From assembly GCF_012910905.1 (NCBI RefSeq), contig NZ_WTVN01000004.1, forward strand, positions 1 through 64,000: a stretch of DNA of 64,000 nt, read 5' to 3'. Position numbers and translations under genes: made by a program. This DNA is from Aromatoleum toluvorans. Its GTDB lineage: Bacteria; Pseudomonadota; Gammaproteobacteria; Burkholderiales; Rhodocyclaceae. Below are positions 42,146-63,910 of the stretch, one piece after another. Every line of letters starts with the position of its first letter. Within the stretch, counting starts at the first letter, position 1. The notes beneath the pieces were generated by a model. That model searched no databases and was not told the origin of the DNA. It saw only the letters and a program-made list of their open reading frames with translations.

Positions 42146-42329
42146 GCCTGCGGGATGCATTCGGCCGACGTTTTCGTCGTCGTCGTTTTCAAGAAAACGC
42201 CCGTCGAAGTGCGGAAATTAGGGGGGCATCCCGTTCTTTAGCATGGACTTACGTTGTCGGTGCGCAGGTTCCCAGGCATCCGGCGATGTTTTCGGCAACA
42301 CCCATTACATATAACAGGAGTGGATGGAC

Positions 42330-45872: not shown

Positions 45873-46778
45873 ATGGCCATCGACCGTTTCGAGGCGTTGC
45901 GTGTCTTTTGCCGCATTGTCGAAATGGGCAGCTTCAGTCGCACTGCCCGGCTTCTCGACATGTCGAATTCCTCGGTGACCAACCACCTCACGAACCTGGA
46001 AGAACACCTGGGCGTCCGGCTGCTCAACCGGACGACGCGCAAGCTCTCCCTGACCGACGAGGGCCGGGCCTGCTACGACCGCGCCCGCGATTTGCTGGAT
46101 GGGCTCGGCGAATTGGAGGAGGGCTTGCGCGGGGCGAAGGCCGTGCCCCAGGGGGTGCTCCGGGTCGACGTTCCCACCGCGATCGGGCGCATGTATATCG
46201 CGCCGGCGTTGCCTCGTTTCGCAGAGCTTTATCCCGAAGTGACGGTGAGGATGACGCTCGGGGACCAGGTCCTCGCACCCGAGGAAACGGGCGTGGATGT
46301 CTCCATCCGCATCGGGGACCTGAAGGAGTCGTCGCGGGTGGCGAAGACGATTCACCGGGCGCGCTACGTGTGCTGCGCATCGCCCGATTTCCTGGCCAGG
46401 CATGGCACCCCGGCGGCGCCGCAGGATCTGGCGAGGTATCCGCAGATCGGCTTTTTGCAGCCGACTTCGCGGCATCCCGTCCCCTGGTACTTCAGCAAGG
46501 GCGACGTCGCGTTCGAGCAGATGCCCGACGCCCGCATCTGGATCAATCACGCCGAGTCGCTGATCGATGCGGCCATATCCGGCGGCGGCGTGGTCCAGCT
46601 CTTTTCCCTTTCGCTGCAGCGCTACTTTGCGAAAGGGGTCCTGGTGCCGATCCTGGCGGACTGGTCGGCCCCGGGCCCGCCGATCTCGATCCTTTATCCG
46701 CCAAGCCGCCACCAGCCCGCGAAGATCAGCGCGTTCGTGAGGTTCGTGAGCGAGCTGTTTGATGATCAGCTCGAATAA
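45873..46778 (+). CDS. LysR-family regulator
   Basis: A 301-residue regulator with an N-terminal helix-turn-helix (RFEALRVFCRIVEMGSFSRTA, SSVTNHLTNLEEHLGVRLLNRTTR) and a LysR effector domain. It looks like the large group that often acts on neighbouring divergent genes, here DoxX. The start at 45873 fits the family N-terminus (MAIDRFEALRVF). An upstream in-frame ATG at 45819 would add 18 residues from AT-rich DNA that more likely is promoter. Confidence 0.85.
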   Translation: MAIDRFEALRVFCRIVEMGSFSRTARLLDMSNSSVTNHLTNLEEHLGVRLLNRTTRKLSLTDEGRACYDRARDLLDGLGELEEGLRGAKAVPQGVLRVDVPTAIGRMYIAPALPRFAELYPEVTVRMTLGDQVLAPEETGVDVSIRIGDLKESSRVAKTIHRARYVCCASPDFLARHGTPAAPQDLARYPQIGFLQPTSRHPVPWYFSKGDVAFEQMPDARIWINHAESLIDAAISGGGVVQLFSLSLQRYFAKGVLVPILADWSAPGPPISILYPPSRHQPAKISAFVRFVSELFDDQLE

Positions 46779-46855
46779 GGCTCGGGGGTAATGCCCGCTC
46801 GGTGTGCACCGTGAGGGGCGCGAACCGGCCCGTGCTCAATATTATTGTCTGTATG

Positions 46856-46910
46856 TGCAACAATGTGCTGTTAATTGTAAATATACAGATCAATCGTATT
46901 GGCTAGTATT
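46856..46910 (+). promoter_or_regulatory. Island promoter box A (before the amidase remnant)
   Basis: TGCAACAATG, then TGTAAATATA 20 bp later start-to-start, then TCAATCGTA and a -10-like TAGTAT at 46904. The spacing equals that of boxes B-E, although single positions differ. The promoter is kept although the gene behind it has lost most of its coding sequence. Confidence 0.7.
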
Positions 46911-46972
46911 CCTCCAGGCATGTACCCCGCTGTCGCGCCACCCGAGCGCAAACCTGCCTGGAGACGAATCAC

Positions 46973-47215
46973 ATGGAAAGCCCACTCAGCGAGACGCTCG
47001 AACAGGCCTTCGCGCAAGCCACCAAGCTGTACCAGGAGCGCGGCTTCCAGCGCCGCGTCGGCTTTGGCAAGAAGCCGGCGCTGATCAACGTCGACCTTGC
47101 GAACGCCTGGACGCGCCCGGGCAACCCCTTCACCTGCGAGAAGATCGACGCCACGTTCGCTGACGTGGAATCGGTCGGGCGCCGCGTCGATTACCTGTAC
47201 TCGATGAAGGGCTGA
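46973..47215 (+). pseudogene. N-carbamoylsarcosine amidase, internally deleted remnant
   Basis: The 80-codon frame joins the first ~59 residues of the amidase to its last ~20 residues; the full copies have 228. The join keeps the frame and falls in the 7-bp sequence ATCGACG, which occurs at both ends of the missing 444 bp in the intact copies. D41 of the catalytic triad remains, but the lysine (K136) and nucleophilic cysteine (C169) are gone, so it cannot be an active amidase. Promoter box A and the CTGGAGA ribosome site are intact, so a short protein could still be made. Confidence 0.9.
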
Positions 47216-48172
47216 CTCCGGCCGGGCCGGGTGAGGGGCCGTGCGCCCTGGACGGCCCCTTCGCTGGTGAATGCATGCCCGAATAAACAACGATGGCGAA
47301 GACGGTCGTGGCCCGCACGCGGGGGTGAAGTCGTATGAAATTGGCAGGCTGGTTAATCAAACAGATTCGGAAAATGAATCGAATCCGATAGTCGAGATTC
47401 GTGTGGAAATTATTTCGGGTTAGCTCAATTTTCTGCGAAAAAAATTTCCGTGATCTGCACTAATCAAGTGCGTAGATAAAGCTGGCTATATTTTCTGGCA
47501 GCTTCAGAAGGCTGCAGATCGTTCTGTCGACTTGAAGGCGGTTTGGCGAAGGCTTGGATCGTCGAGAAATCGCATGGCTGTTCGTGATTAATCCGTCTTT
47601 GATCGCGGATATTGTCAACGGGCGAGTTGTGCGCATAATAAATTTGCGCGGCAATCGTTTTGGTACGAGTGCCATGAATTCCCCTTCGCTCTGATATCAT
47701 ATCCATCCTCGTTTGTCGCTTGAAATAGCGAAAAATCTTGTAAATACAAGATGATAGGCGCTTCTTCGGGTGGTTTTATGCAGGATGGAATTACGCCCTT
47801 CGCGATGGGGCGTGACGTGCCGATCCTGATCCGGAGAGGACGTCAGAATCGTCACGTCCATATTTTTCATTTCAGATTCAGGTTTGCCGGAATCACCGTT
47901 CCGGATGTCTCTTTTTGTCCATGGCGATTTCCAATGGGGTGGAGGTTAAGGTCGCATAAAATCGGTTTGTGCATCAACGCCCCAGGAAGAGACATTAATG
48001 GTTCGTCTTGCACAAATCTGGTGCGTCAAATGAAAAGATAATCAAAAAATGGTCTGATTGGGTTCGTAATAATTGGCGTCTCCTGCGGGAATTTCTTGTG
48101 TTTTCCATTTCTCGTTAAGTTGGCATTGCAATTGCTATCGGTTAATTGCCAATTTATTTTCAGGAGACTGTT
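47216..48172 (+). other. AT-rich intergenic region before hyuA copy 1
   Basis: 957 bp, clearly richer in A+T than the surroundings. There are short open frames on both strands (for example 47751-48041), but none has family-like sequence or good coding bias, so I assign no gene. It contains an 18-bp inverted repeat at 47735. Just before hyuA is a GCATTGCAATTGC segment that shares ATTGCAATTGC with the region upstream of the first Tsx-like gene. Its composition suggests foreign or decayed DNA. No transposase remnant was recognised. Confidence 0.5.
47735..47752. promoter_or_regulatory. Inverted repeat, possible operator
   Basis: ATCTTGTA-AA-TACAAGAT is an 8-bp perfect inverted repeat with a 2-base centre. 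It includes TGTAAATA, the central element of the island promoter boxes, but not their flanking elements. Confidence 0.4.
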
Positions 48173-50269
48173 ATGGCAAGAATCGGAGTGGACGTCGGAG
48201 GCACCTTCACGGATCTGGTGCTCGAGGTCGAAGGTGAGAAGCAAGGCAAGCATCGCGTCTACGTGCATAAGGTACCGAGTACTCCATGGGATCAGTCGGA
48301 AGGGGTGCTGGGCGGCATCCTGGAGATTTGCCGCATCGGCGGAATTTATCCCAGCGATGTGCGCCTGATCGTGCACGGCACGACGGTCGCGACCAACATC
48401 ACGATCGAGCACAACGGCGCCGAAGTCGGGATGCTCACGACGCGGGGCTTCCGCGACATCCTGCACATCGGCCGGCACAAGCGTCCGGAGAATTTCTCGC
48501 TGCAGTTCGACGTGCCGTGGCAGTCGCGGCCGCTGGTGAAGCGTCGCAACCGCATCGCGATCGGCGAGCGGGTCATGCCGCCGCACGGCGAAGTCGCGCA
48601 GCCGCTTGATGAAGACGAGGTGCGTGCGGCGGCCGAGCTCTTCAAGGCGCGCGGCATCCGCTCCGTGATCGTGTGTTTCCTCTATTCGTTCCTGAACGAT
48701 GCGCACGAACGCCGCGCGAAGGAGATCATTCAGGAGGTGCTGCCCGACGCCTACGTCTCGTGCTCCTCGGAGGTCGCGAACGTCATCCGCGAGTACGAGC
48801 GCTTCTCGACGACGGCGATGAACGCCTATGTCGGCCCCAAGACCTCCCTCTACCTGAAGAACCTCGAGCAGAAGCTCGTCGACGCGGGCATCAAGGCGCA
48901 CCTGCGCATCATGCAGTCGAACGGCGGCGTGTCGACGGTCGAGAAGTGCTCGAAGGAGGCGGTGTCGATCCTGATGTCGGGCCTGGCCGGCGGCGTGATG
49001 GGCGGCCGCTGGGCCGGCGCGCTGTCGGAGGAGAAGAACGTCATCACCGTCGACATCGGCGGCACGTCGGCGGACTTCAGCACGATCCCCGACGGCAAGG
49101 TGAAGATCATGAACCCGCGCGACACCTACGTCGGCGCGTATCCCATCCTCGCGCCGATGATCGACCTCGCGACGATGGGGGCGGGCGGGGGCTCGATCGC
49201 CTACATCGACGAAGGCGGCGCCTTCCGCGTCGGTCCGCGTTCGGCCGGCGCCGATCCGGGGCCCGCATGCTACGGCAAGGGCGGCACCGAGCCGACGGTC
49301 ACCGACGCGCAGGTCGTGCTCGGGCGGCTGGACCCCGACCATTTCCTCGGTGGCGGCATCGAGATCGATGCCGAACTTGCGCGCGAAGCGATCCGCACGA
49401 AGGTCGCAGAGCCGCTCGGGCTCACGGTCGAAGAGGCCGCGCTCGGCATCATCCGCATCCTCAACTCCAACATGTCGCTCGCGATCCGCGCGAACTCGGT
49501 CGCCAAGGGCTACGACCCGCGCAAGTTCGCGCTCGCCCCGTTCGGCGGTGCGGGGCCGCTCAACGGCGTCGCGCTTGCCGAGGCCGTCAGTGCACGCGAA
49601 GTGATCGTGCCGCCCGCACCGGGAATCACCGCGGCGATCGGGCTGCTTGTCACCGACATGCAGTACGAATTCATGCGCTCGGTGCCGACGCTGCTGAAGG
49701 ACGTCGAACAGCCCGCGCTCGACAAGCTCAACCGCGTGATCGACGAGCTCACCGCGCTGTGCCGCGAGCGGCTCGACGACGACGGCGTGCCGGCTGACAA
49801 CCAGCACTTCGTGCGCATCGCCGAATGCCGCTACCACGGACAGGGTTTCGAGCTGCGCGCGGACATTCCCGAGGGTCGGATCGACGGCGAGCGGCTCGCC
49901 GCCGTCAAGGCGAGCTTCCAGGCGCAGCACAAGCGGGACTACGGCTGGGCCTTCGACGACGTCGATGTCGAGATCGTGACGATCCGCATCATCGGCATCG
50001 CCCGCACCCGGCCGCTCGCGTGGCCCGAACTGGAGGACGCCGCGGGGAGTAGCCCCGACTCCGCACTGATGTACGAGCGGCCGACGATCTTTGACGACAG
50101 GAAGTCCTACGCGACGCCGCGCTATGACCGGAAGAAGCTGAAGGCCGGGCACGAGCTCTCCGGCCCCGCGATCATCGTCCAGCACGACTCGACGACGCTG
50201 GTCCCGCCGGGCTACGTGGCCAAGGTTTCGGCCAAGGGCAACATCCACATCAATGCGCAGCGCGCCTAA
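48173..50269 (+). CDS. ATP-dependent hydantoinase subunit A, copy 1 (probable N-methylhydantoinase)
   Basis: The large ATP-binding subunit of a hydantoinase/oxoprolinase complex, 698 residues. The N-terminal DVGGTFTDLVLE (about 6-17) and central VDIGGTSADFSTI carry the phosphate-binding motifs of the actin-like fold. An N-carbamoylsarcosine amidase next to it makes N-methylhydantoin the likely substrate, giving N-carbamoylsarcosine with ATP use; hydantoin, 5-oxoproline and caprolactam are other substrates of the family. A GGAGAC ribosome site precedes the ATG at 48173. It differs from copy 2 at about a dozen residues, most in the first 55 and last 50. Unlike copy 2, it has no clear promoter box upstream. 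Confidence 0.9.
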   Translation: MARIGVDVGGTFTDLVLEVEGEKQGKHRVYVHKVPSTPWDQSEGVLGGILEICRIGGIYPSDVRLIVHGTTVATNITIEHNGAEVGMLTTRGFRDILHIGRHKRPENFSLQFDVPWQSRPLVKRRNRIAIGERVMPPHGEVAQPLDEDEVRAAAELFKARGIRSVIVCFLYSFLNDAHERRAKEIIQEVLPDAYVSCSSEVANVIREYERFSTTAMNAYVGPKTSLYLKNLEQKLVDAGIKAHLRIMQSNGGVSTVEKCSKEAVSILMSGLAGGVMGGRWAGALSEEKNVITVDIGGTSADFSTIPDGKVKIMNPRDTYVGAYPILAPMIDLATMGAGGGSIAYIDEGGAFRVGPRSAGADPGPACYGKGGTEPTVTDAQVVLGRLDPDHFLGGGIEIDAELAREAIRTKVAEPLGLTVEEAALGIIRILNSNMSLAIRANSVAKGYDPRKFALAPFGGAGPLNGVALAEAVSAREVIVPPAPGITAAIGLLVTDMQYEFMRSVPTLLKDVEQPALDKLNRVIDELTALCRERLDDDGVPADNQHFVRIAECRYHGQGFELRADIPEGRIDGERLAAVKASFQAQHKRDYGWAFDDVDVEIVTIRIIGIARTRPLAWPELEDAAGSSPDSALMYERPTIFDDRKSYATPRYDRKKLKAGHELSGPAIIVQHDSTTLVPPGYVAKVSAKGNIHINAQRA

Positions 50270-50279
50270 GGAGCACCAG

Positions 50280-52088
50280 ATGAACCCGTCGAACACCAAG
50301 GTCGACCCGATCACCCTGCAGGTCATCAGCGGCGCATTGCATACCATCGCCGAAGAGATGGGCCACGTGCTTTATCGCATGTCCTTCTCGTCGATCATTC
50401 GCGAGTCGCAGGACATCGGTGCGGGCCTCTTCGACTTGCAGTTCAACACCCTGACCGAATCCGAGGGCTCGCCGCTGCACATCGGCTCGATCCCGGCCTA
50501 CCTGCGCGGCATCGACGCCTGCCTGCAGGGCGGCACGTGGAACGAGGGCGACGTCGTGCTCCACAACCACCCGTATTACGGCGCGAGCCACAGCCCCGAC
50601 CTGTGCATCGTCGTGCCGGTGTTCTGGCGCGGCGAGCTGGTCGCCTTCGCGGCCAATACCGCGCACCACGTCGATATCGGTGCGGCAACGCCCGGCCTCA
50701 TCATCGACATCCCGGACGTCTTCGCCGAAGGCATGCTCTTCGCCGGCATCAAGCTCTACGAAGGGGGCAAGCGCAACGAGGGGCTGTGGCAGTACATCAG
50801 CCACAACAGCCGCACCGCGAAACAGACCAAGGACGACATCGACGCGCAGATCGCCTCGGCGATGCTCGGCGCGCAGCGCATGCAGGAACTCCTCGATACC
50901 TACGGCAAGGAGACGGTGTTCGGCGCGGCGGACCAGCTGATGGACTACACGGAGGCGATGATGCGCAGCCGCATCGCCGAGATCCCCGACGGCGAATACT
51001 TCGCCGAAGGCTATCTCGACGACGACGGTGCGAACCGCGACAAGCGCCTGCCGATCAAGGTGTGCGTGCGCGTCACCGGCGACAGCGTCGAGGTCGACCT
51101 CACCGGCTCGGCCGATCAGGTGCCGACCGGCTTCAACGTGCCGTTCGAAGGCTCGACGAAACCGGCCTGCTACTGCGCCTTCCGCGCGATGCTCACCGAT
51201 GCCGCGATGATGGAGGTGAAGCTGCCGCCGAATGAAGGTTCCTTCCGCCCGATCAAGGTCACGGCGCCGAAAGGCTCGATCTTCAACCCGATCTACCCGG
51301 CGGCGGCCGAGGCGCGCTTCACGCAGTGCAACCGCATGATCGACCTGATCATCAAGGCGCTTGCGCCCGTGATGCCGCAGCGGGTCACCGCCGGCAACTC
51401 GGCGACGCTGTCCTTCGCCGCGTACTCGGGCATCAAGGCCGAAGGCGACTACTGGGTGTTTCTCGAAGTCAATGAGGGCGCCTACGGCGGTCGGCCGCAG
51501 TCGGACGGGCCGGACTCGATCGACAACCTGATGGCGAACACGCGCAACAACCCGATCGAGGACCTCGGCATGCACCTGCCGATGGTGTGCGACCGCTACG
51601 AGCTGCGCGACGACGTGATGCCCGGAGCGGGGCAGTTTCGCGGCGGCATCGGCGTCGTCAAGACGCAGCGCCTGCTCACCGACGGCGCCATCACGCACGA
51701 GTCCGAGCGCCATCTGGACGTACCCTGGGGCGCCTTCGGCGGCACCGACGGTGCGGCGGGCCGCGTCGAGATCTTCCTGCCGGACGGCACGAAGCAGGAC
51801 ACCTACGCGAAGTTCTCCAACCTGCGCGTGCCGGCGGGTGGTGGCATGGCGTACTACGCACCCTGCGGCGGGGGCTATGGCGACCCGCTCGATCGCCCGG
51901 CCCGCAAGGTGCTCGAGGATGTCATGGACGATTTCTGCACCCTCGACCACGCCCGCGAGGTCTATGGAGTGATCATCTCCGGGGACCTCCTCCTCGACGA
52001 GGCGGCCACGCAGGCGCGCCGCACGCTGCTCCGCCTGGAGCGGCAGACGGCGGACGCGACGCCCGCTCCCGAGCCCGCAACGGCCTGA
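50280..52088 (+). CDS. ATP-dependent hydantoinase subunit B, copy 1 (probable N-methylhydantoinase)
   Basis: The second subunit of the complex, 602 residues, HyuB family. Recognisable blocks are the MSFSSIIRESQDIGAGLFD start, HNHPYYGASHSPDLCIV and HHVDIGAATPG with likely metal-binding histidines, and the C-terminal GGGYGDPLDRP. The start follows the hyuA stop by 10 bp with an AAGGAG site. The sequence is nearly the same as copy 2 up to about codon 542, then changes abruptly; the last 60 residues are related but far less similar. A hairpin follows. Confidence 0.9.
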   Translation: MNPSNTKVDPITLQVISGALHTIAEEMGHVLYRMSFSSIIRESQDIGAGLFDLQFNTLTESEGSPLHIGSIPAYLRGIDACLQGGTWNEGDVVLHNHPYYGASHSPDLCIVVPVFWRGELVAFAANTAHHVDIGAATPGLIIDIPDVFAEGMLFAGIKLYEGGKRNEGLWQYISHNSRTAKQTKDDIDAQIASAMLGAQRMQELLDTYGKETVFGAADQLMDYTEAMMRSRIAEIPDGEYFAEGYLDDDGANRDKRLPIKVCVRVTGDSVEVDLTGSADQVPTGFNVPFEGSTKPACYCAFRAMLTDAAMMEVKLPPNEGSFRPIKVTAPKGSIFNPIYPAAAEARFTQCNRMIDLIIKALAPVMPQRVTAGNSATLSFAAYSGIKAEGDYWVFLEVNEGAYGGRPQSDGPDSIDNLMANTRNNPIEDLGMHLPMVCDRYELRDDVMPGAGQFRGGIGVVKTQRLLTDGAITHESERHLDVPWGAFGGTDGAAGRVEIFLPDGTKQDTYAKFSNLRVPAGGGMAYYAPCGGGYGDPLDRPARKVLEDVMDDFCTLDHAREVYGVIISGDLLLDEAATQARRTLLRLERQTADATPAPEPATA

Positions 52089-52129
52089 CCGGCGCGGCAG
52101 CACCCACCCCGTAATCCGTAGCTCCGACA

Positions 52130-52151
52130 CACCCGGCCGCAAGGCCGGGTG
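52130..52151 (+). terminator. Stem-loop between hyuB copy 1 and the NCS1 permease
   Basis: CACCCGGCC, loop GCAA, and exact complement, 41 bp after the hyuB stop. The GCAA tetraloop adds stability. No T-run follows, so partial termination or mRNA processing is more likely. Confidence 0.6.
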
Positions 52152-52240
52152 GGGAGGCGTGCGTCCTCGTCGCGCCGCCACCCCGTGCATTTTCGTTCGT
52201 CATTCCGGCAACTGTTCCGTCATCAAGGAGAACTTGCATC

Positions 52241-53749: not shown

Positions 53750-53788
53750 TCCCGCCTCCCCACCGAAAACACGAACAGGACGACCACG

Positions 53789-54598
53789 ATGAAACAACTT
53801 GCCGGAAACAACAAACCGCGCCGCGCGCTGACGGGCATCGCGCTGGCCCTTGCCCTGGGCGGCGCCGCAGGGCAGGCCGCTGCAGCCGAGTGGAGCGAGA
53901 CGGACGTGCAGGTCATGAACGGCACGCGCTTCCGCGATCCGGGCAATCCCGACGACGTCACGAAGACGACGGTGACGCTGCAGCACGTGAGCGGCTACGC
54001 CTATGGGCGCAACTACTTCTTCGTCGATTCTTATTGGGGAACGAAGAACGCGCCGCGCGCGAACGACATCTACGGTGAGTACTACCACTACCTGAGCCTG
54101 GGCAAGATCACCGGCGCGAAGTTCGGCGAGGGTGTGCTGAAGGACGTCAGCCTGACCGCGGGCGTCAACGCGGGAGCCTCGACCGGGGGCGCGGCGACGC
54201 GGGTCCTGCTCTACGGCGTGACGCTGGATTTCGCGGTGCCCGGGTTCAGCTACTTCAACGTGGACCTGCTCGCTTATGACGACCGCTCGCAGTTCAACGG
54301 CGTGCAAACCCGTTACCGGAACAGCTACCAGGTAACCCCGGTATGGCGGCTGCCGTTCAGCATCGGCCCCACGCACTGGTCCTTCGAGGGTTTTTGCGAC
54401 TTCATCGGCGCGCGCGGCCAGGGCACCGTCAATCAGACCCTGTGCCAGCCGCAACTGCGTCTGGATGTCGGTCAACTCGTGTCGGGACGCCGCGATGCGT
54501 TCTACATCGGCACCGAGTACCAGTACTGGCGCAACAAGTACGGCATCGACGGCCTCGACGAGAGCTTCCCCAACATCATGGCCGTCGTGAAGTTCTAA
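53789..54598 (+). CDS. Tsx-like outer-membrane channel (unit 1)
   Basis: A 269-residue beta-barrel with a signal peptide (cleavage near AAAA, about residue 34) and a C-terminal VVKF strand ending in phenylalanine. From the mature N-terminus (WSETDVQVMNGTRF) on it is identical to the channel at 61798 except for I/V and D/N near the end, while the signal peptides are unrelated. It probably brings ureides across the outer membrane to the NCS1 permease encoded just upstream. Confidence 0.85.
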   Translation: MKQLAGNNKPRRALTGIALALALGGAAGQAAAAEWSETDVQVMNGTRFRDPGNPDDVTKTTVTLQHVSGYAYGRNYFFVDSYWGTKNAPRANDIYGEYYHYLSLGKITGAKFGEGVLKDVSLTAGVNAGASTGGAATRVLLYGVTLDFAVPGFSYFNVDLLAYDDRSQFNGVQTRYRNSYQVTPVWRLPFSIGPTHWSFEGFCDFIGARGQGTVNQTLCQPQLRLDVGQLVSGRRDAFYIGTEYQYWRNKYGIDGLDESFPNIMAVVKF

Positions 54599-54757
54599 GG
54601 CGCACATCCGCCGATGTTGCGGAGTCGCCGCGGGCGGCCGTCGGTCGTTCCTGGCGGCTCCGTGCTCGCTTGCGTCGATGTCGGGATTTCCTTGTGCCGG
54701 CAAGCGGATAGGGGTACTGGCCGCGTGTCGATGATCGCCGAAATAATGTATTTCAAA

Positions 54758-54814
54758 CGCAATAATCGACGACTAATTGTAAATAGACGAAGCAATAGTA
54801 GGACGACTAGTATT
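54758..54814 (+). promoter_or_regulatory. Island promoter box B (before amidase copy 2)
   Basis: CGCAATAATC, then TGTAAATAGA 20 bp later, GCAATAGTA 33 bp after the first GCAATA, and a -10-like TAGTAT at 54808. No good -35 hexamer is present, as expected for an activator-dependent promoter. Two direct GCAATA elements three helical turns apart would suit an AraC-type dimer. Confidence 0.75.
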
Positions 54815-54879
54815 TCCTGCAGGCAAAGACAACTTTGTCGCAACCCCAAGGATGAAAACGATCTGGAGATCATGCTGAA

Positions 54880-55566
54880 ATGGATACCGAACTGAACACG
54901 ATGCTCAAACAAGCCTTCGCGCAAGCCACCAAGCTCTACCAGGAGCGCGGCTTCCAGCGCCGCGTGGGCTTTGGCAAGAAGCCGGCGCTGATCAACGTCG
55001 ACCTTGCGAACGCCTGGACGCGCCCGGGCAACCCCTTCACCTGCGAGAAGATCGACGACGAGATCATCCCCGGCGTGCAGCGCCTGCTGAAGGCGTGCCG
55101 CGAGAACAATCATCCGGTGATCCACGTGACGACCTGCTACCAGGTCACCGACCGCAACAATCCGAACACCGACATGGGCCTGTGGCACAACAAGATTCCG
55201 GTCGATGTCGTGAATCAGGAAGACGAGAACATCTGGGCAATCGACTCGCGCATCGCGCCGATCGCCGGTGAGCAGGTGCTGGTCAAGAAGCGCGCGAGTT
55301 CCTTCCATGGCACCTACCTCGCGGGCTTCCTGCGCGCGGCCGGGGTCGACACCATCCTCGTGACCGGCGTGACCGCGTCGGCCTGCGTGCGCACGACGCT
55401 GTGCGACGGCCTGGCCGAGGGTTTCCGTACGATCGCCGTGCGTGAGTGCATCGGCGACCGCGTGCCCGGCGCGGTCGAGTGGAACCTGTTCGACATCGAC
55501 GCCAAGTTCGCCGACGTCGAGTCGGTCGACCGCTGCGTCGATTACCTCTATTCGCTGAAGGGCTGA
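54880..55566 (+). CDS. N-carbamoylsarcosine amidase (isochorismatase family), copy 2
   Basis: Hydrolyses N-carbamoylsarcosine to sarcosine, CO2 and ammonia. The 228-residue product has the full isochorismatase-fold triad: D41 (INVDLANAWT), K136 (LVKKRASSFHGT) and the nucleophile C169 (GVTASACVRTT). Positions match D51, K144 and C177 of the Arthrobacter enzyme. The long NAWTRPGNPFTC segment is typical of this subgroup rather than of nicotinamidases. GGAG is present upstream of the ATG at 54880. It lies behind promoter box B. Confidence 0.9.
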   Translation: MDTELNTMLKQAFAQATKLYQERGFQRRVGFGKKPALINVDLANAWTRPGNPFTCEKIDDEIIPGVQRLLKACRENNHPVIHVTTCYQVTDRNNPNTDMGLWHNKIPVDVVNQEDENIWAIDSRIAPIAGEQVLVKKRASSFHGTYLAGFLRAAGVDTILVTGVTASACVRTTLCDGLAEGFRTIAVRECIGDRVPGAVEWNLFDIDAKFADVESVDRCVDYLYSLKG

Positions 55567-56046
55567 TCGGGGGGCGGCAGAGTTCCAGCAAATGATTCGA
55601 TAGCGAAGCGCTTCCGGTGATCCGGGTAGCACCGTTTCTTGCGAAATTGCACACGGCTTGCCGGCGTCCCGGTTCCATCGGTCGGCCAAGTTCGCTGCGG
55701 TGCGAAATCGGATCACCGGCACGCGTACGCGGAAAACCGGCAGTCGTTTCGCCTGGATTGACCCGGTCCGCAAGTCCTCGACGAAGTCAGGCCGCCTTTG
55801 GTACCCCCGGCCGTCCATGCATAGGGAATCTGCTCGTTGCGACGCAAAAATCATTATTGTCGGCAACAGCAAGATTCGCTGAAAGCTTCTCAATAGACCG
55901 GCAATAGTGCAGCGCCTAGTATCCGGTTCGGCAAGCGCTTCTTTTCGACTCAACATCACGCCCCCGAGGACTTCACCACCAACCAACACCGCATCACCGC
56001 CCAGCGACACAAGATTCGCAATAGAGCGAGAAAAGAGGAGACTGAA
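55567..56046 (+). other. Intergenic region before hyuA copy 2
   Basis: 480 bp between the amidase and hyuA of unit 2. No gene is supported; two short overlapping frames (near 55617-55907) have no ribosome site or recognisable sequence. The last 180 bp contain promoter box E and an AT-richer leader. The region bears no obvious resemblance to the DNA before hyuA copy 1, although the genes that follow are nearly identical. Confidence 0.5.
55868..55923 (+). promoter_or_regulatory. Island promoter box E (before hyuA copy 2)
   Basis: AGCAAGATTC, then TCTCAATAGA 20 bp later, GCAATAGTG and a -10-like TAGTAT at 55917. The interval from GCAATAGT to TAGTAT equals that of box B. The upstream element is weaker than in boxes B-D. 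Confidence 0.6.
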
Positions 56047-58143
56047 ATGGCAAGAATCGGAGTAGATGTCGGAGGCACCTTCACGGATCTGGTGCTCGAG
56101 ATCGAAGGCGAGAACATGGGACAGCATCGGGTCTACGTGCATAAGGTCCCGAGCACTCCGTGGGATCAATCGGAAGGCGTGCTGCGCGGCATCCTGGAGA
56201 TTTGCCGCATCGGCGGAATTTATCCCAGCGATGTGCGCCTGATCGTGCACGGCACGACGGTCGCGACCAACATCACGATCGAGCACAACGGCGCCGAAGT
56301 CGGGATGCTCACGACGCGGGGCTTCCGCGACATCCTGCACATCGGCCGGCACAAGCGTCCGGAGAATTTCTCGCTGCAGTTCGACGTGCCGTGGCAGTCG
56401 CGGCCGCTGGTGAAGCGTCGCAACCGCATCGCGATCGGCGAGCGGGTCATGCCGCCGCACGGCGAAGTCGCGCAGCCGCTTGATGAAGACGAGGTGCGTG
56501 CGGCGGCCGAGCTCTTCAAGGCGCGCGGCATCCGCTCCGTGATCGTGTGCTTCCTGTACTCCTTCCTGAACGATGCGCACGAACGCCGCGCGAAGGAGAT
56601 CATCCAGGAGGTGCTGCCCGACGCCTACGTCTCGTGCTCGTCGGAAGTCGCGAACGTCATCCGCGAGTACGAGCGCTTCTCGACGACGGCGATGAATGCC
56701 TACGTCGGCCCCAAGACCTCCCTCTACCTGAAGAACCTCGAGCAGAAGCTCGTCGACGCGGGCATCAAGGCGCACCTGCGCATCATGCAGTCGAACGGCG
56801 GCGTGTCGACGGTCGAGAAGTGCTCGAAGGAGGCCGTCACGATCCTGATGTCGGGGCTGGCCGGCGGCGTGATGGGCGGCCGCTGGGCCGGTGCGCTGTC
56901 GGAGGAGAAGAACGTCATCACCGTCGACATCGGCGGCACGTCGGCGGACTTCAGCACGATCCCCGACGGCAAGGTGAAGATCATGAACCCGCGCGACACC
57001 TACGTCGGCGCGTATCCGATCCTCGCCCCGATGATCGACCTCGCGACGATGGGCGCGGGAGGCGGGTCGATCGCCTACATCGACGAGGGTGGCGCGTTCC
57101 GTGTCGGGCCGCGTTCGGCCGGCGCGGATCCGGGGCCCGCATGCTACGGCAAGGGCGGCACCGAGCCGACGGTCACCGACGCGCAGGTCGTGCTCGGGCG
57201 CCTGGACCCCGACCATTTCCTCGGTGGCGGCATCGAGATCGACGCCGAGCTGGCGCGCGAAGCGATCCGCACGAAGGTCGCAGAGCCGCTCGGGCTCACG
57301 GTCGAAGAGGCCGCGCTGGGCATCATCCGCATCCTCAACTCCAACATGTCGCTCGCGATCCGCGCGAACTCGGTCGCCAAGGGCTACGACCCGCGCAAGT
57401 TCGCGCTCGCCCCGTTCGGCGGTGCGGGTCCGCTCAATGGCGTCGCGCTTGCCGAGGCCGTCAGTGCACGCGAAGTGATCGTGCCGCCCGCACCGGGGAT
57501 CACCGCGGCGATCGGGCTGCTTGTCACCGACATGCAGTACGAATTCATGCGCTCGGTGCCGACGCTGCTGAAGGACGTCGGGCAGCCGGCGCTCGACAAG
57601 CTCAACCGCGTGATCGACGAGCTCACCGCGCTGTGCCGCGAGCGGCTCGACGACGATGGCGTGCCGGCTGACAACCAGCACTTCGTGCGCATTGCCGAAT
57701 GCCGCTACCACGGACAGGGCTTCGAGCTGCGTGCGGACATTCCCGAGGGTCGGATCGACGGCGAGCGGCTCGCCGCCATCAAGGCGAGCTTCCAGGCGCA
57801 ACACAAGCGGGACTACGGCTGGGCGTTCGACGACGTCGATGTCGAGATCGTGACGATCCGCATCATCGGTATCGCCCGCACCCGACCCCTTGCCTGGCCG
57901 GAACTGGAGGATGCCGCGGGGAGCAGCCCCGACGGCGCATTGATGTACGAGCGGCCGACCATCTTCGACGACAGGAAGACCTACGCGACACCGCGCTATG
58001 ACCGGAAGAAGCTCAAGGCCGGCCACGAACTTTCCGGCCCCGCGATCATCGTCCAGCACGACTCGACGACGCTGGTCCCGCCGGGCTACGTGGCCAAGGT
58101 TTCGGGCAAGGGCAACATCCACATCAATGCGCAGCGCGTCTAA
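56047..58143 (+). CDS. ATP-dependent hydantoinase subunit A, copy 2 (probable N-methylhydantoinase)
   Basis: Duplicate of the 48173 gene, also 698 residues, with the same phosphate-binding motifs (DVGGTFTDLVLE, VDIGGTSADF). Differences from copy 1 include V/I near residue 20, ENMGQ for EKQGK, R for G in GVLRG, and single changes near the C-terminus. Many synonymous changes are also scattered through the gene, so the duplication is not brand new. GAGGAG precedes the ATG. It is expressed from its own box E promoter, while copy 1 lacks one. Confidence 0.9.
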   Translation: MARIGVDVGGTFTDLVLEIEGENMGQHRVYVHKVPSTPWDQSEGVLRGILEICRIGGIYPSDVRLIVHGTTVATNITIEHNGAEVGMLTTRGFRDILHIGRHKRPENFSLQFDVPWQSRPLVKRRNRIAIGERVMPPHGEVAQPLDEDEVRAAAELFKARGIRSVIVCFLYSFLNDAHERRAKEIIQEVLPDAYVSCSSEVANVIREYERFSTTAMNAYVGPKTSLYLKNLEQKLVDAGIKAHLRIMQSNGGVSTVEKCSKEAVTILMSGLAGGVMGGRWAGALSEEKNVITVDIGGTSADFSTIPDGKVKIMNPRDTYVGAYPILAPMIDLATMGAGGGSIAYIDEGGAFRVGPRSAGADPGPACYGKGGTEPTVTDAQVVLGRLDPDHFLGGGIEIDAELAREAIRTKVAEPLGLTVEEAALGIIRILNSNMSLAIRANSVAKGYDPRKFALAPFGGAGPLNGVALAEAVSAREVIVPPAPGITAAIGLLVTDMQYEFMRSVPTLLKDVGQPALDKLNRVIDELTALCRERLDDDGVPADNQHFVRIAECRYHGQGFELRADIPEGRIDGERLAAIKASFQAQHKRDYGWAFDDVDVEIVTIRIIGIARTRPLAWPELEDAAGSSPDGALMYERPTIFDDRKTYATPRYDRKKLKAGHELSGPAIIVQHDSTTLVPPGYVAKVSGKGNIHINAQRV

Positions 58144-58153
58144 GGAGAACCAG

Positions 58154-59968
58154 ATGAACCCGTCGAACACCAAGGTCGACCCGATCACCCTGCAGGTCAT
58201 CAGCGGCGCATTGCACACCATCGCCGAGGAAATGGGCCACGTCCTCTACCGCATGTCCTTCTCGTCGATCATCCGCGAGTCGCAGGACATCGGCGCGGGG
58301 CTCTTCGACCTGCACTTCAATACGCTGACCGAGTCCGAGGGCTCGCCGCTGCACATCGGCTCGATCCCGGCCTACCTGCGCGGCATCGACGCCTGCCTGC
58401 AGGGCGGCACGTGGAACGAGGGCGACGTCGTGCTCCACAACCACCCGTATTACGGCGCGAGCCACAGCCCCGACCTGTGCATCGTCGTGCCGGTGTTCTG
58501 GCGCGGCGAGCTGGTCGCCTTCGCGGCCAATACCGCGCACCACGTCGATATCGGTGCGGCAACGCCCGGTCTCATCATCGACATCCCGGACGTCTTCGCC
58601 GAGGGCATGCTCTTCGCCGGCATCAAGCTCTATGAGGGCGGCAAGCGCAATGAGGGCCTGTGGCAGTACATCGGCCACAACAGCCGCACCGCGAAGCAGA
58701 CCAAGGACGACATCGACGCGCAGATCGCCTCGGCACTGCTCGGTGCGCAGCGGATGCAGGAACTCCTCGATACCTACGGCAAGGAAACCGTCTTCGGCGC
58801 CGCGGACCAGCTGATGGACTACACGGAGGCGATGATGCGCAGCCGCATCGCCGAGATTCCCGACGGCGAATATTTCGCCGAAGGCTATCTCGACGACGAC
58901 GGTGCGAACCGTGACAAGCGCTTGCCGATCAAGGTGTGCGTGCGGGTCACCGGCGACAGCGTCGAGGTCGACCTCACCGGCTCGGCCGACCAGGTGCCGA
59001 CGGGCTTCAACGTGCCTTTCGAAGGTTCGACGAAGCCGGCCTGCTACTGCGCCTTCCGTGCGATGCTCACCGATGCCGCGCTGATGGAGGTGAAGCTGCC
59101 GCCGAACGAAGGCTCCTTCCGTCCGATCAAGGTCACGGCGCCGAAGGGCTCGATCTTCAACCCGATCTACCCGGCCGCGGCCGAGGCGCGCTTCACGCAG
59201 TGCAACCGCATGATCGACCTGATCATCAAGGCGCTTGCGCCCGTGATGCCGCAGCGGGTCACCGCCGGCAACTCGGCGACGCTGTCCTTCGCCGCGTACT
59301 CGGGCATCAAGGCCGAAGGCGACTACTGGGTGTTTCTCGAAGTCAATGAGGGCGCCTACGGCGGTCGGCCGCATTCGGACGGCCCGGACTCGATCGACAA
59401 CCTGATGGCGAACACGCGCAACAACCCGATCGAGGACCTCGGCATGCACCTGCCGATGGTGTGCGACCGCTACGAGCTGCGCGACGACGTGATGCCCGGA
59501 GCGGGGCAGTTTCGCGGCGGCATCGGCGTCGTCAAGACGCAGCGCCTGCTCACCGACGGCGCGATCACGCATGAGTCCGAGCGCCATCTGGACGTACCCT
59601 GGGGCGCCTTCGGCGGCACCGACGGTGCGGCGGGCCGCGTCGAGATCTTCCTGCCGGACGGCACGAAGCAGGACACCTACGCGAAGTTCTCCAACCTGCG
59701 CGTGCCGGCGGGTGGTGGCATGGCGTACTACGCACCCTGCGGCGGGGGCTATGGCGACCCGCTCGATCGCCCGGCCCGCCTGGTGCTTGAGGACGTGCTG
59801 GACGGCTTCTGCACCCGGGCACATGCCTTCGACGCCTACGGGGTGGTCGTCACCGAGGCGTTGGAGCTCGACGAGAGCGCCACTATGGCGCGGCGTACCT
59901 TGATTCGCCTCGAGCGGCGCCTGCCGCCGCTGGCGGAACAGGGCGCAGCGGTCGTCGAGACCGTCTAA
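58154..59968 (+). CDS. ATP-dependent hydantoinase subunit B, copy 2 (probable N-methylhydantoinase)
   Basis: Duplicate of the 50280 gene, 604 residues, begun at the ATG at 58154 with AAGGAG upstream, 10 bp after hyuA. Only about five residues differ from copy 1 in the first 540 (for example DLHFN for DLQFN). The C-terminal 60 residues are then clearly divergent from about 59779 on. A frame extends upstream of the ATG inside hyuA but is not coding. Confidence 0.9.
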   Translation: MNPSNTKVDPITLQVISGALHTIAEEMGHVLYRMSFSSIIRESQDIGAGLFDLHFNTLTESEGSPLHIGSIPAYLRGIDACLQGGTWNEGDVVLHNHPYYGASHSPDLCIVVPVFWRGELVAFAANTAHHVDIGAATPGLIIDIPDVFAEGMLFAGIKLYEGGKRNEGLWQYIGHNSRTAKQTKDDIDAQIASALLGAQRMQELLDTYGKETVFGAADQLMDYTEAMMRSRIAEIPDGEYFAEGYLDDDGANRDKRLPIKVCVRVTGDSVEVDLTGSADQVPTGFNVPFEGSTKPACYCAFRAMLTDAALMEVKLPPNEGSFRPIKVTAPKGSIFNPIYPAAAEARFTQCNRMIDLIIKALAPVMPQRVTAGNSATLSFAAYSGIKAEGDYWVFLEVNEGAYGGRPHSDGPDSIDNLMANTRNNPIEDLGMHLPMVCDRYELRDDVMPGAGQFRGGIGVVKTQRLLTDGAITHESERHLDVPWGAFGGTDGAAGRVEIFLPDGTKQDTYAKFSNLRVPAGGGMAYYAPCGGGYGDPLDRPARLVLEDVLDGFCTRAHAFDAYGVVVTEALELDESATMARRTLIRLERRLPPLAEQGAAVVETV

Positions 59969-60229
59969 CCAGACCACCCGGTCGTCATTTCCCCCTTCGT
60001 GGCGAATCTCCCCTGCTCAGGCGGGGGAGAGGGGCTCTTGCGTCCAATTTTGGGCCCCGCTCGCCGCGCGTCCGATCAAGAACAAGAAAAACCTCCAAGC
60101 CATCCGCCTGACGCGACGCGCCACACGCGAATGACTTGCGGGGTTCCATTGTGGCCGTATGGCCCGGCGCCATCCTGGATTCATCGGGCGCGGGCCCTGC
60201 GGCTTCATCCACCAAAAAGGAGGTAAGTC

Positions 60230-61720
60230 GTGAGCGTTCATAACAACACGCAGTCCGAGATCTGGAACGAGGACCTTGCTCCGACCGATCCGACCCACAG
60301 GACCTGGCGCTGGCAGGATTACGCCGCCCTGTGGATCGGCATGGTCATGTGCATCCCATGCTACATGCTGGCGGCAGGTCTGATGGACCAGGGCATGTCG
60401 GCGACCCAGTCGGTCATGATCGTTTTCGCCGGCAACGCCATCGTGTTGATCCCCATGTTGCTGATCGGCCATCCCGGCGCCCGCTATGGCGTGCCCTTCG
60501 CGGTGCTGGTGCGATCGTCATTCGGCGTGCAGGGCAACAAATTGCCGGCCCTGTTGCGGGCGCTCGTCGCCTGCGGCTGGTTCGGCATCCAGTGCTGGGT
60601 GGGGGGAAGCGCCATCTACGCCATCGGCAATCTCCTGAGCGGAGGCCTGCTGGTGGGGCCGAAGATGGCGTGGGCCGGCGTCAACGCTTGGCAACTGGCG
60701 TGCTTCTTCATCTTCTGGGCGCTGCACCTTTACTTCATCGCCCGGGGGCCGGAGTCGGTGAGGAAGATCGAGACCTTCACCGCTCCCCTCAAGGTCGTGA
60801 TCGTGCTCGCGCTGCTATGGTGGGCCTACGACAAGGCCGACGGCTTCGGCCAGATGTTCTCGGCGCCGTCCCAGTTCGGTCCCGGGGGCCAGAAGGAAGG
60901 CCAGTTCTGGGCAGTATTCTGGCCGTCGCTCACGGCGATGGCGGGGTTCTGGTCGACGCTGGCGATGAACATCCCCGACTTCACGCGCTTTTCCGCGTCC
61001 CAGCGCGAACACTACCTGGGTCAGGCGGTCGGCCTGCCGATCCCGATGGCCTTGCTGGCATTCGTCGGTGTCGCCGTCACCTCGGCCACCGTCGTCATCT
61101 ATGGCAAGGCGATCTGGGACCCGGTCGACCTGGCGAGCCGGATGGAAGGCGTCGCCGTGGCGATCGGCCTGGCGATCATCACCCTCGATACGCTGTGCGT
61201 GAACCTCGCGGCCAATACCGTCGCGCCGGCCTACGACTTCGCCGCCATCTTCCCGCGGCATGTCAATTTCGCCCGGGGCGGCTACATCACGGCGGTCATC
61301 GGTGTCGTGATCATGCCGTGGAAGCTTGCGGAATCCACCCAGGGCTACATCTTTACCTGGCTCATCGGCTACGGCGCGCTGCTCGGACCGGTGCTCGGGA
61401 TCATGCTCGCCGATTACTGGCTGATCCGGCGTACGCGGCTCGATGTCGACGATCTCTTCGACTTGCGCGGACGGTACGCTTATCGGAACGGCTGGAACAT
61501 GTCGGCGCTGATCGCCTTCGCCATCGGCGTCCTGCCGAACCTGCCGGGATTCCTCCACGCCGCCTTTCCCGCTGCCTTCGCCGACGTACCGGCGTTCTTT
61601 ACGGAACTCTACAACTACGCATGGTTCGTGGGCCTGTTCCTGTCCCTTGGGGTTTACCGGTTGTTGATGGCTTCAGAAACCGTACGGGTGAGCCAGCGCC
61701 TTGCCGTCGAAAGAGTCTGA
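60230..61720 (+). CDS. NCS1-family permease, allantoin/hydantoin (Mhp1-like) type
   Basis: An inner-membrane permease of 496 residues with about twelve helices. The opening NEDLAPTDPTHRTWRWQDYAALWIG and the GNAIVLIPMLLIGHPGARYGVPFAVL segment are typical of the allantoin and hydantoin branch (PucI, Mhp1). That is a different branch from the permease in unit 1. The GTG start is supported by AAGGAGG at 60220-60226. Given hyuAB next door, hydantoin or N-methylhydantoin is the most likely substrate. Confidence 0.9.
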   Translation: MSVHNNTQSEIWNEDLAPTDPTHRTWRWQDYAALWIGMVMCIPCYMLAAGLMDQGMSATQSVMIVFAGNAIVLIPMLLIGHPGARYGVPFAVLVRSSFGVQGNKLPALLRALVACGWFGIQCWVGGSAIYAIGNLLSGGLLVGPKMAWAGVNAWQLACFFIFWALHLYFIARGPESVRKIETFTAPLKVVIVLALLWWAYDKADGFGQMFSAPSQFGPGGQKEGQFWAVFWPSLTAMAGFWSTLAMNIPDFTRFSASQREHYLGQAVGLPIPMALLAFVGVAVTSATVVIYGKAIWDPVDLASRMEGVAVAIGLAIITLDTLCVNLAANTVAPAYDFAAIFPRHVNFARGGYITAVIGVVIMPWKLAESTQGYIFTWLIGYGALLGPVLGIMLADYWLIRRTRLDVDDLFDLRGRYAYRNGWNMSALIAFAIGVLPNLPGFLHAAFPAAFADVPAFFTELYNYAWFVGLFLSLGVYRLLMASETVRVSQRLAVERV

Positions 61721-61797
61721 TCGGGTGCGCAACGGCGCTTGGGCAGCAACACAAATTCAGAACCAGAACATCACCACGTACATTAGGAACATGTGAC

Positions 61798-62613
61798 ATG
61801 AATCAGTTATCAGGGAAGATCGGACTTCGTCGCGTCGGGGCCGTAATCGGCGGCATCCTCGCGTTTGTCCTTGCAGGTCATCTCGGTTCCGCGACGGCCT
61901 CGGATTGGAGCGAAACGGACGTGCAGGTCATGAACGGCACGCGCTTCCGCGATCCGGGCAATCCCGACGACGTCACGAAGACGACGGTGACGCTGCAGCA
62001 CGTGAGCGGCTACGCCTATGGGCGCAACTACTTCTTCGTGGATTCCTATTGGGGAACGAAGAACGCGCCGCGCGCGAACGACATCTACGGTGAGTACTAC
62101 CACTACCTGAGCCTGGGCAAGATCACGGGCGCGAAGTTCGGCGAGGGCGTGCTGAAGGACGTCAGCCTGACCGCGGGTGTCAACGCGGGTGCCTCGACCG
62201 GGGGCGCGGCGACGCGGGTCCTGCTCTACGGCGTGACGCTGGATTTCGCGGTGCCCGGCTTCAGCTACTTCAACGTGGACCTGCTCGCCTACGACGACCG
62301 CTCGCAGTTCAACGGTGTGCAAACCCGTTACCGGAACAGCTATCAGGTGACCCCGGTATGGCGGCTGCCGTTCAGCATCGGCCCCACGCACTGGTCCTTC
62401 GAGGGCTTCTGCGACTTCATCGGCGCGCGCGGGCAGGGCACCGTCAATCAGACGCTGTGCCAACCGCAACTGCGGCTCGATGTCGGGCAACTCGTGTCGG
62501 GTCGCCGCGATGCGTTCTACGTCGGCACGGAATATCAGTACTGGCGGAACAAGTACGGCATCGACGGTCTCAATGAGAGCTTCCCCAACATCATGGCGGT
62601 CGTGAAGTTCTGA
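61798..62613 (+). CDS. Tsx-like outer-membrane channel (unit 2)
   Basis: A 271-residue beta-barrel whose mature part is almost identical to the channel at 53789, ending in the same VVKF strand. The signal peptide (MNQLSGKIGLRRVGAVIGG, cleavage near ATAS) is unrelated to that of the unit 1 channel. The change from unrelated to near-identical sequence falls close to the cleavage site. The ribosome site is AGGAAC. A strong terminator follows. Confidence 0.85.
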   Translation: MNQLSGKIGLRRVGAVIGGILAFVLAGHLGSATASDWSETDVQVMNGTRFRDPGNPDDVTKTTVTLQHVSGYAYGRNYFFVDSYWGTKNAPRANDIYGEYYHYLSLGKITGAKFGEGVLKDVSLTAGVNAGASTGGAATRVLLYGVTLDFAVPGFSYFNVDLLAYDDRSQFNGVQTRYRNSYQVTPVWRLPFSIGPTHWSFEGFCDFIGARGQGTVNQTLCQPQLRLDVGQLVSGRRDAFYVGTEYQYWRNKYGIDGLNESFPNIMAVVKF

Positions 62614-62652
62614 TCGACGTGCGCTTCGCGGACTAGCTCCGCGGAGCCCCCA

Positions 62653-62701
62653 CCCGAACGCGGTGCTCGGCGGCCAGGCCGTCGGCACCGCGTTCGGGCG
62701 T
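62653..62701 (+). terminator. Terminator after the unit 2 channel gene
   Basis: A 14-bp perfect inverted repeat (CCCGAACGCGGTGC and its complement) with an 18-base partly self-paired loop, followed by CGTTT. It separates the unit 2 transcript from promoter box C. Confidence 0.8.
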
Positions 62702-62735
62702 TTACCGCGCCTTTGGGTGAATAATGGTCATATAA

Positions 62736-62790
62736 CGCAATAATCGATGAATAACTGTAAATAGACTAAGCAATAGTAACCGTTACTATC
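62736..62790 (+). promoter_or_regulatory. Island promoter box C (before amidase copy 3)
   Basis: CGCAATAATC, TGTAAATAGA 20 bp later, GCAATAGTA 33 bp after the first GCAATA, and a -10-like TACTAT at 62784. It is the closest match to box B over the two GCAATA elements. Confidence 0.75.
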
Positions 62791-62850
62791 TCTCCAGACA
62801 AAGACGCCTTTGTCACACACCGAAACCCACACTGTCTGGAGAAGAAGACC

Positions 62851-63537
62851 ATGCAAAGCCAACTCAACGACATGCTCAAGCAAGCCTTTGCCGAAGCCAC
62901 CAAGCTCTACCAGGAGCGCGGCTTCCAGCGCCGCGTGGGCTTTGGCAAGAAGCCGGCGCTGATCAACGTCGACCTTGCGAACGCCTGGACGCGCCCGGGC
63001 AACCCCTTCACCTGCGAGAAGATCGACGACGAGATCATCCCCGGCGTGCAGCGCCTGCTGAAGGCGTGCCGCGAGAACAACCACCCGGTGATCCACGTGA
63101 CGACCTGCTACCAGGTCACCGACCGCAACAATCCGAACACCGACATGGGCCTGTGGCACAACAAGATTCCGGTCGATGTCGTGAATCAGGAAGACGAGAA
63201 CATCTGGGCGATCGACTCGCGCATCGCGCCGATCGCCGGTGAGCAGGTGCTGGTCAAGAAGCGCGCGAGCTCCTTCCATGGCACCTACCTCGCGGGCTTC
63301 CTGCGCGCGGCCGGGGTCGACACCATCCTCGTGACCGGCGTGACCGCATCGGCCTGCGTGCGCACGACGCTGTGCGACGGCCTGGCCGAGGGTTTCCGCA
63401 CGATCGCCGTGCGCGAGTGCATCGGCGACCGCGTGCCCGGCGCAGTCGAGTGGAACCTGTTCGACATCGACGCCAAGTTCGCCGACGTGGAATCGGTCGA
63501 TCGCTGCGTCGATTACCTGTACTCGATGAAGGGCTGA
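62851..63537 (+). CDS. N-carbamoylsarcosine amidase (isochorismatase family), copy 3
   Basis: A 228-residue duplicate of copy 2 with the full triad D41, K136 and C169. Amino-acid differences are confined to the first 15 residues (MQSQLNDMLKQAFAE) and one L/M near the C-terminus. The CTGGAGA leader and promoter box C resemble those of copies 1 and 2. It begins what would be a third module, but the following DNA has another promoter box and a different open frame. Confidence 0.9.
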   Translation: MQSQLNDMLKQAFAEATKLYQERGFQRRVGFGKKPALINVDLANAWTRPGNPFTCEKIDDEIIPGVQRLLKACRENNHPVIHVTTCYQVTDRNNPNTDMGLWHNKIPVDVVNQEDENIWAIDSRIAPIAGEQVLVKKRASSFHGTYLAGFLRAAGVDTILVTGVTASACVRTTLCDGLAEGFRTIAVRECIGDRVPGAVEWNLFDIDAKFADVESVDRCVDYLYSMKG

Positions 63538-63910
63538 TCGTGCGGGCGGGGGGCGTGGCGCCCCCGCCCGTCGCCGGCCCGTATGCCCCGAGCTTGTCCG
63601 TACGGGACCTCCGGTCGCGTTTTTTCGGTGATGAGTGGGCTGTACGGGGCGGTGCATGCAAATGTCTCAATGGTGTTCGGATAGTTCGCACGGATCGCAA
63701 TAATCACGACCGAACTGTAAATAGATGCGGAAATTGCTTCGACTAGGATTCGGGTCTGAGGAGGCGTCGGACGGGCGGTCTGCACAGACAATATCTCGCC
63801 CAAGCAGGCAGGCGCTCGGCTGCGATATCCCTTCAGTCTGAGCGTACAGGGTTCATTCAAGCCGCCATCGCCGTCCTGAGGTGCGAGGGCAAGAACGGGA
63901 GATCGGATGC
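63538..63910 (+). other. Intergenic region with promoter box D
   Basis: 373 bp. After the amidase stop there is no clear terminator hairpin. Promoter box D lies at 63696-63750 and an untranslated leader of about 150 bp follows. No other feature is seen. Confidence 0.5.
63696..63750 (+). promoter_or_regulatory. Island promoter box D (before the partial gene at the window end)
   Basis: CGCAATAATC and TGTAAATAGA at the same 20-bp spacing as boxes B and C, and a -10-like TAGGAT at 63744. The second GCAATA element is degenerate (GAAATTGCT), so this is the weakest of the full-length boxes. Confidence 0.65.

Follow-up and report, generated by a model that had tools for sequence, protein, structure and literature searches.

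The window analysed here comprises bases 1-64000 of contig C62 of the Aromatoleum toluvorans genome (G000; 4,797,596 bases in 117 contigs). It contains a cluster of genes for N-carbamoylsarcosine amidase, HyuA/HyuB-type hydantoinase subunits and permeases, some of them duplicated, along with repeated copies of a promoter element, hereafter the box. The box is a 57-bp block composed of ATNRT, GCAATAAT, AAYTGTAAATAGA and CAATAGT, located ahead of a TAGTAT-like -10 element. Six copies (A to F) are present in the genome, all on this contig, between 46.8 and 69.6 kb. The last of these and the gene of its candidate regulator, the LysR-type protein LysR2, lie in the adjoining sequence (L006, C62:64001-84000), where coordinates above 64000 continue the window numbering. 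Position 0 of the box is the G of GCAATAATC (A, 46857; B, 54759; C, 55869; D, 62737; E, 63697; F, 69575). The features of the locus are as follows; bit scores of boxes refer to the profile, and pattern matches to the mismatch pattern, both described below the list.

32458-33489, plus strand: GlxA/GbdR-like AraC-family regulator (HTH_18 and DJ-1_PfpI domains; GbdR is the nearest NCBIfam model).
46841-46897, plus strand: box A (block), -10 element TAGTAT at 46904-46909; 3-mismatch pattern match, 56.7 bits; precedes the amidase remnant, with hyuA1-hyuB1-permease further on.
46973-47215, plus strand: amidase remnant of 80 aa, delineated by self-alignment, junction and translation.
54743-54799, plus strand: box B (block), -10 element TAGTAT at 54808-54813; exact pattern match, 62.3 bits; precedes amidase copy 1.
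54880-55566, plus strand: N-carbamoylsarcosine amidase copy 1, isochorismatase fold (PF00857; best PDB relative 1nba, an N-carbamoylsarcosine amidohydrolase, E 6.8e-72).
55853-55922, plus strand: box C, degenerate, of the hyuA type, -10 element TAGTAT at 55917-55922; 44.1 bits.
56047-58143, plus strand: HyuA-type hydantoinase/oxoprolinase subunit copy 2 (PF01968, PF05378, PF19278).
58148-59968, plus strand: HyuB-type subunit copy 2 (open frame, start approximate; PF02538).
60230-61720, plus strand: NCS1-family permease (PF02133; TIGR00800 above cut-off).
62721-62777, plus strand: box D (block), -10 element TACTAT at 62784-62789; exact pattern match, 59.7 bits; precedes amidase copy 2.
62851-63537, plus strand: N-carbamoylsarcosine amidase copy 2, 97% identical to copy 1.
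63681-63737, plus strand: box E (block), -10 element TAGGAT at 63744-63749; exact pattern match, 52.7 bits; precedes the M19 dipeptidase gene.
63911 or 63881 (likely start) to 64981, plus strand: M19 dipeptidase gene (PF01244).
68617-69534 (L006:4617-5534), minus strand, past the window: LysR2 (PF00126, 75.5 bits, and PF03466, 142.7 bits, both above cut-off).
69559-69627 (L006:5559-5627), plus strand, past the window: box F; 2-mismatch pattern match, 59.9 bits.

Across 26 sites in eight genomes, the conserved blocks of the box occupy positions -16 to -12 (ATNRT), 0 to 7 (GCAATAAT), 16 to 28 (AAYTGTAAATAGA) and 34 to 40 (CAATAGT), and the -10 element falls at positions 47-52, with a shift of 2 bp in two amidase sites (54759 in the window and G233_11653); in the sites before hyuA, the last block, CAATAGT, is displaced by 1 bp. 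An earlier note on this DNA had described five copies with CGCAATAATC-like and TGTAAATAGA-like elements 20 bp apart, most of them with a second GCAATA 33 bp after the first and all with a TAGTAT-like -10 element. The 20-bp arrangement is found at 46856, 54758, 62736 and 63696, whereas the copy at 55868 is degenerate: it reads AGCAAGATTC / TCTCAATAGA and is missed by the 3-mismatch pattern. The second GCAATA at 33 bp is present in only two of the five copies (54758 and 62736), the distance being 32 bp at 55868 and the element reading TCAATC or GAAATT in the other two; the -10 element is TAGTAT in three copies and a variant at 62736 (TACTAT) and 63696 (TAGGAT). Two features had been overlooked: the copy at 69575 and a conserved ATNRT that stands some 15 bp upstream of CGCAATAATC. 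That the surrounding DNA differs is borne out, any pair of the six copies having the same letter at only 22-38 positions of the 100 bp upstream.

The pattern GCAATAATC-N10-TGTAAATAGA with at most 3 mismatches matched four times in the window and not at all in 100 dinucleotide shuffles. In the whole genome, it matched five times, always on this contig and on the plus strand, with no match for the reversed control; the new, fifth match is box F at 69575, 5.6 kb beyond the window. A shorter, looser pattern (3 mismatches) yielded six matches in the genome, one of them elsewhere (C39), and three for the reversed control, so that its weaker matches are at chance level. A sequence-only profile, built from the 26 sites of the eight box-containing genomes (box C among the training sites), was run over the 17 Aromatoleum genomes of the genus set, A. 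toluvorans included. It detected 27 sites at 36.3-66.6 bits, all inside the gene cluster, followed by a next match at 13.5 bits, and no further A. toluvorans site at E<=1. Since 26 of these 27 sites match by construction, the informative part is the absence of others; the 27th is new and precedes an amidase copy (G249:C65:17466). The reversed box pattern had one match in the 17 genomes, in a genome without the box (G276). Three matches away from the cluster genes were taken as chance: one at 4964197 in G288 (13.1 bits by the profile), one on contig C297 of G298 (13.5 bits), and one with 2 mismatches in G125, the only genome outside the genus that was matched when 297 genomes of the family were searched with at most 2 mismatches; the contig of the G125 match is 9 kb long, and the 2.3 kb inspected there contain no cluster gene. 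Thus, the proposal that the box marks a local regulon under one regulator is supported by the confinement of profile matches to this gene cluster in the 17 genomes.

Within promoter groups, the block is better conserved than the sequence upstream of it: 65 vs 32% identity for the amidase promoters (13 sites), 73 vs 36% for those between the ketoacyl synthase gene and LysR2 (six sites) and 66 vs 45% for the hyuA promoters (five sites). For the dipeptidase promoters, the two sites are so similar throughout (block 95 vs upstream 84%) that no such difference can be judged. Below the -10 element, identity is 41% in the ketoacyl synthase group, 39% in the hyuA group and 60% in the amidase group, and between promoter groups, identity upstream of the block is 25-29%. 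The counterparts of box C precede hyuA in G288, G213, A. toluclasticum and Azoarcus sp. Aa7.

The box, LysR2 and the amidase are found in the same eight of the 17 genus genomes, and the presence of LysR2 coincides with that of the box in 17 of 17 (presence was defined by at most 3 mismatches for the box, at least 89% identity and E<=1e-90 for LysR2, and at least 95% identity and E<=1e-60 for the amidase). Among the four regulators compared (LysR2, the GlxA-family protein at 32458, and two further proteins of the region, LysR1 and GlxA2), only LysR2 follows the box. In all eight genomes, a box lies in the divergent intergenic region of LysR2, with position 0 located 38-51 bp from the LysR2 start codon. 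Six of the genomes have the ketoacyl synthase gene on the other side of this region; G213 and Azoarcus sp. Aa7 have the amidase there, in G213 with the ketoacyl synthase gene after it. In a set of 399 genomes of the order, with at most five first-look candidates per genome scored for LysR2 and at most seven for the amidase, only A. toluvorans and G587 passed for LysR2 (E<=1e-75), and the same two alone passed for the amidase (E<=1e-70). In G587, which belongs to another family of the order, a LysR gene of 49% identity diverges from genes for an amidase (76%), HyuA (80%), HyuB (85%) and a permease (74%). The nearest solved relative of LysR2 is BenM. The motif, its confinement to the cluster, its co-occurrence with LysR2, the divergent adjacency and the conservation of the block were all established computationally, and taken with the gene order, they make LysR2 most likely the protein that binds and activates at the box. 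The divergent position is the stronger argument here: the box, LysR2 and the amidase are linked in one cluster, so that their distribution rejects rival regulators better than it proves the role of LysR2.

LysR2, a BenM/CatM-like protein, would bind the 57-bp block at positions -16 to +40 and thereby activate the promoters ahead of the amidase, hyuA copy 2, dipeptidase-TRAP and ketoacyl synthase genes. If transcription starts where predicted, some 7 bp past the -10 element, the block would extend from about -75 to -19; its distal part, near -64, would serve for recognition and its proximal part, over a weak -35 element, for activation. The weak -35 sequence, TAGAC, lies inside the block, which suggests an activator. 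The inducer would probably be N-methylhydantoin, N-carbamoylsarcosine or a related hydantoin, and LysR2 probably regulates its own gene too, given how close a box stands to the LysR2 start codon. According to PMC8407307, a LysR-type site spans about 50-60 bp, its recognition part frequently being near -65 and its activation part at the -35/-10 regions, and the regulator gene is often divergent and negatively autoregulated; the size and place of the block, the latter relative to the predicted start site, and the gene order are a good fit to this description.

Several observations weigh against the assignment to LysR2 or against its geometry. Co-occurrence within a linked cluster could reflect joint inheritance, and around the LysR gene of G587 (L089, E<=10) the profile finds no box, so that the site itself has been detected in this genus alone. 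The amidase leader below the -10 element is conserved as well, which means that in this group conservation extends past the block; immediately ahead of hyuA copy 1, the profile detects no box. The best of 1170 dyad layouts, ATTATTG-N10-CAATAAT centred at -4.5 (about -64), has a score of 0.621, equal to the 95th percentile of a control of 200 column permutations, whose range of layouts was narrower than that of the main scan, and is not significant. The best T-N11-A signature inside the recognition region, at -9/+3, is present in only 15 of the 26 sites, and the commonest one, at +4/+16 (23 of 26), lies outside that region. These outcomes leave the half-site reading only suggestive, and the strongest blocks resemble direct rather than inverted repeats.

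The direct repeats bear on the regulator that the earlier note had favoured, the GlxA/GbdR-like AraC-family protein at 32458, which would bind the repeated GCAATA as a dimer and activate the genes. This protein is encoded on the same contig, lies beside creatininase in relatives and is present in all eight box genomes, and the GCAATA-like elements do stand in direct orientation about 33 bp apart. More precisely, CAATAAT-like and CAATAGT-like elements are 33 bp apart in most sites and 32 bp apart in those of the hyuA type, a repeat that also fits a LysR-type layout, in which two adjacent LysR dimers would give the same spacing. However, GlxA orthologues (86-100% identity) occur in 10 of the 17 genomes, with a 48% relative in one more, whereas the box occurs in eight; in G044 and G167, a GlxA gene of 91% identity stands beside creatininase and ABC genes, yet these genomes have neither box, amidase nor LysR2, and near GlxA no box was found even within 5 mismatches in the stretches inspected (L078-L082). 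We consider this regulator very unlikely. The motif of the note is good and its regulator probably wrong. It is highly improbable that another nearby regulator binds the box, although LysR1 (45873-46778) ends just upstream of box A and the amidase has a second GlxA-like protein, GlxA2, next to it in G288, A. evansii, A. toluclasticum and, at 66% identity to the query, Azoarcus sp. Aa7. LysR1 is found in five of the 17 genomes, three of the eight with the box and two without. Close GlxA2 orthologues (97-100%) are limited to three of the 17 genomes, all three among the eight with the box. The remaining copies in box genomes share 47-78% identity and, apart from the one in Aa7, lie at a distance from the cluster; G167 and G299, both without the box, have copies of 77-79%. 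The 17-genome distribution thus led to the rejection of GlxA (32458), LysR1 (45873) and GlxA2 alike as box regulators.

That no regulator is involved, and the box is merely duplicated DNA or an ordinary or alternative sigma promoter, similar through recent duplication, has a basis in boxes A, B and D, which precede duplicated amidase genes, and in the -10 sequence, which accounts for part of the conservation. Such an origin appears equally hard to credit, because the hyuA, dipeptidase and ketoacyl synthase promoters carry the box in unrelated flanks, the start of the conserved block is some 60 bp upstream of the -10 element, and the profile passes no other A. toluvorans site. LysR2 acting at the block is thus the explanation that we retain. 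A more specific proposal, in which a dedicated LysR protein would govern several promoters through the 57-bp box, as one regulon for ATP-dependent N-methylhydantoin use, with the FabF-like synthase and the dipeptidase in the pathway and with mainly direct repeats read, one of them in the -35/-10 spacer, in place of the usual dyad, seems to us rather unlikely.

Duplication has shaped the cluster to the extent that the five copies of the box in the earlier note, although they do recur, do not amount to five separate events. Boxes A, B and D (46856, 54758 and 62736) precede copies of one amidase gene, with aligned pieces 86-97% identical in the DNA self-comparison, and the alignment of 54756 with 62734 (92% identical) starts at the box itself, so that these copies cannot be counted as independent. 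The two hyuA-hyuB copies (48162-51942 vs 56036-59816) are 96% identical and two outer-membrane protein genes (53888-54596 vs 61903-62611) 95% identical; the permease genes between the duplicates are too dissimilar to show in this comparison. In the amidase remnant, 148 codons, including the Cys169 region, have been lost in frame between 7-bp ATCGACG repeats, and its box A is still recognisable; the corresponding copy is intact in G233. An assembly error among the repeats may also account for this remnant. A hairpin, GACAAAG-N4-CTTTGTC (62797-62814), lies near the predicted start of the amidase transcript. Among 13 amidase leaders, eight contain it as such, two in a related form (54759 type) and one in an altered form (A. 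toluclasticum_1274), and two are without it (46857 type); it may stabilise the transcript or affect translation. In the window, Rfam at gathering thresholds detected only a tRNA.

The amidase, HyuA/HyuB and the permease suggest a route from N-methylhydantoin through N-carbamoylsarcosine to sarcosine, reactions that are discussed for Corynebacterium in PMC8864220. HyuA and HyuB carry hydantoinase/oxoprolinase domains, and their nearest NCBIfam models, caprolactamase subunits, are below cut-off, so that the substrate is not fixed by sequence. The M19 dipeptidase gene behind box E is followed by TRAP-like transporter genes, named by eye. Box F precedes a FabF-like ketoacyl-ACP synthase gene (L006:5687-7000, above the fabF cut-off), which stays in the cluster in seven of the eight box genomes, within the stretches inspected. 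The predicted targets of the regulon would accordingly comprise the N-methylhydantoin/N-carbamoylsarcosine branch (amidase and hyuA copy 2), the dipeptidase-TRAP genes and the ketoacyl synthase gene. By the profile, no box was detected for creatininase (34192) or for the creatinase-like gene at 42324, labelled by eye and without an NCBIfam model at cut-off. Downstream of the synthase gene, L006:7747-12515 encodes, as judged by eye, a two-subunit 2-oxoacid:ferredoxin oxidoreductase and an oxidoreductase that resembles glutamate synthase and has ferredoxin motifs; none of these genes has a box by the profile.

The regulon is genuine and, within the reach of our searches of the open-access literature, undescribed, its kind of switch being well known; among the titles listed from that literature (subscription journals being largely outside it), none dealt with a LysR regulator of N-methylhydantoin or N-carbamoylsarcosine genes. 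The guessed regulator is replaced with a testable one, and regulon membership in one genome is given exactly. If LysR2 acts as proposed, the N-methylhydantoin branch would have an inducible switch of its own within creatinine use. The sites duplicated with their genes, one of them before a dead copy, also show how a regulon spreads and decays.

Among known systems, the BenM/CatM/CbnR group resembles this one in that LysR2 has the HTH and substrate domains, BenM as the nearest solved relative and a divergent target, and in that the block is about the size of the 50-60 bp site described in PMC8407307. Unlike in that group, the half-site here resembles CAATAAT/CAATAGT, with a clear T-N11-A dyad not established, the targets are hydantoin/N-carbamoylsarcosine genes, and the box is common to several dispersed promoters. 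In Pseudomonas aeruginosa, GbdR and SouR are regulators of sarcosine catabolism, according to PMC8864220; the GlxA protein at 32458, encoded beside creatininase, is closest to the GbdR model (352.3 bits, below the cut-off of 480), but its distribution does not follow the box. AmtR of Corynebacterium glutamicum, according to the same source, controls the N-carbamoylsarcosine amidase gene cshA and hyuB in creatine/creatinine use, and is thus comparable in its targets; AmtR, however, is a TetR-family central nitrogen regulator, whereas the regulator proposed here would be a dedicated, cluster-encoded protein of the LysR type.

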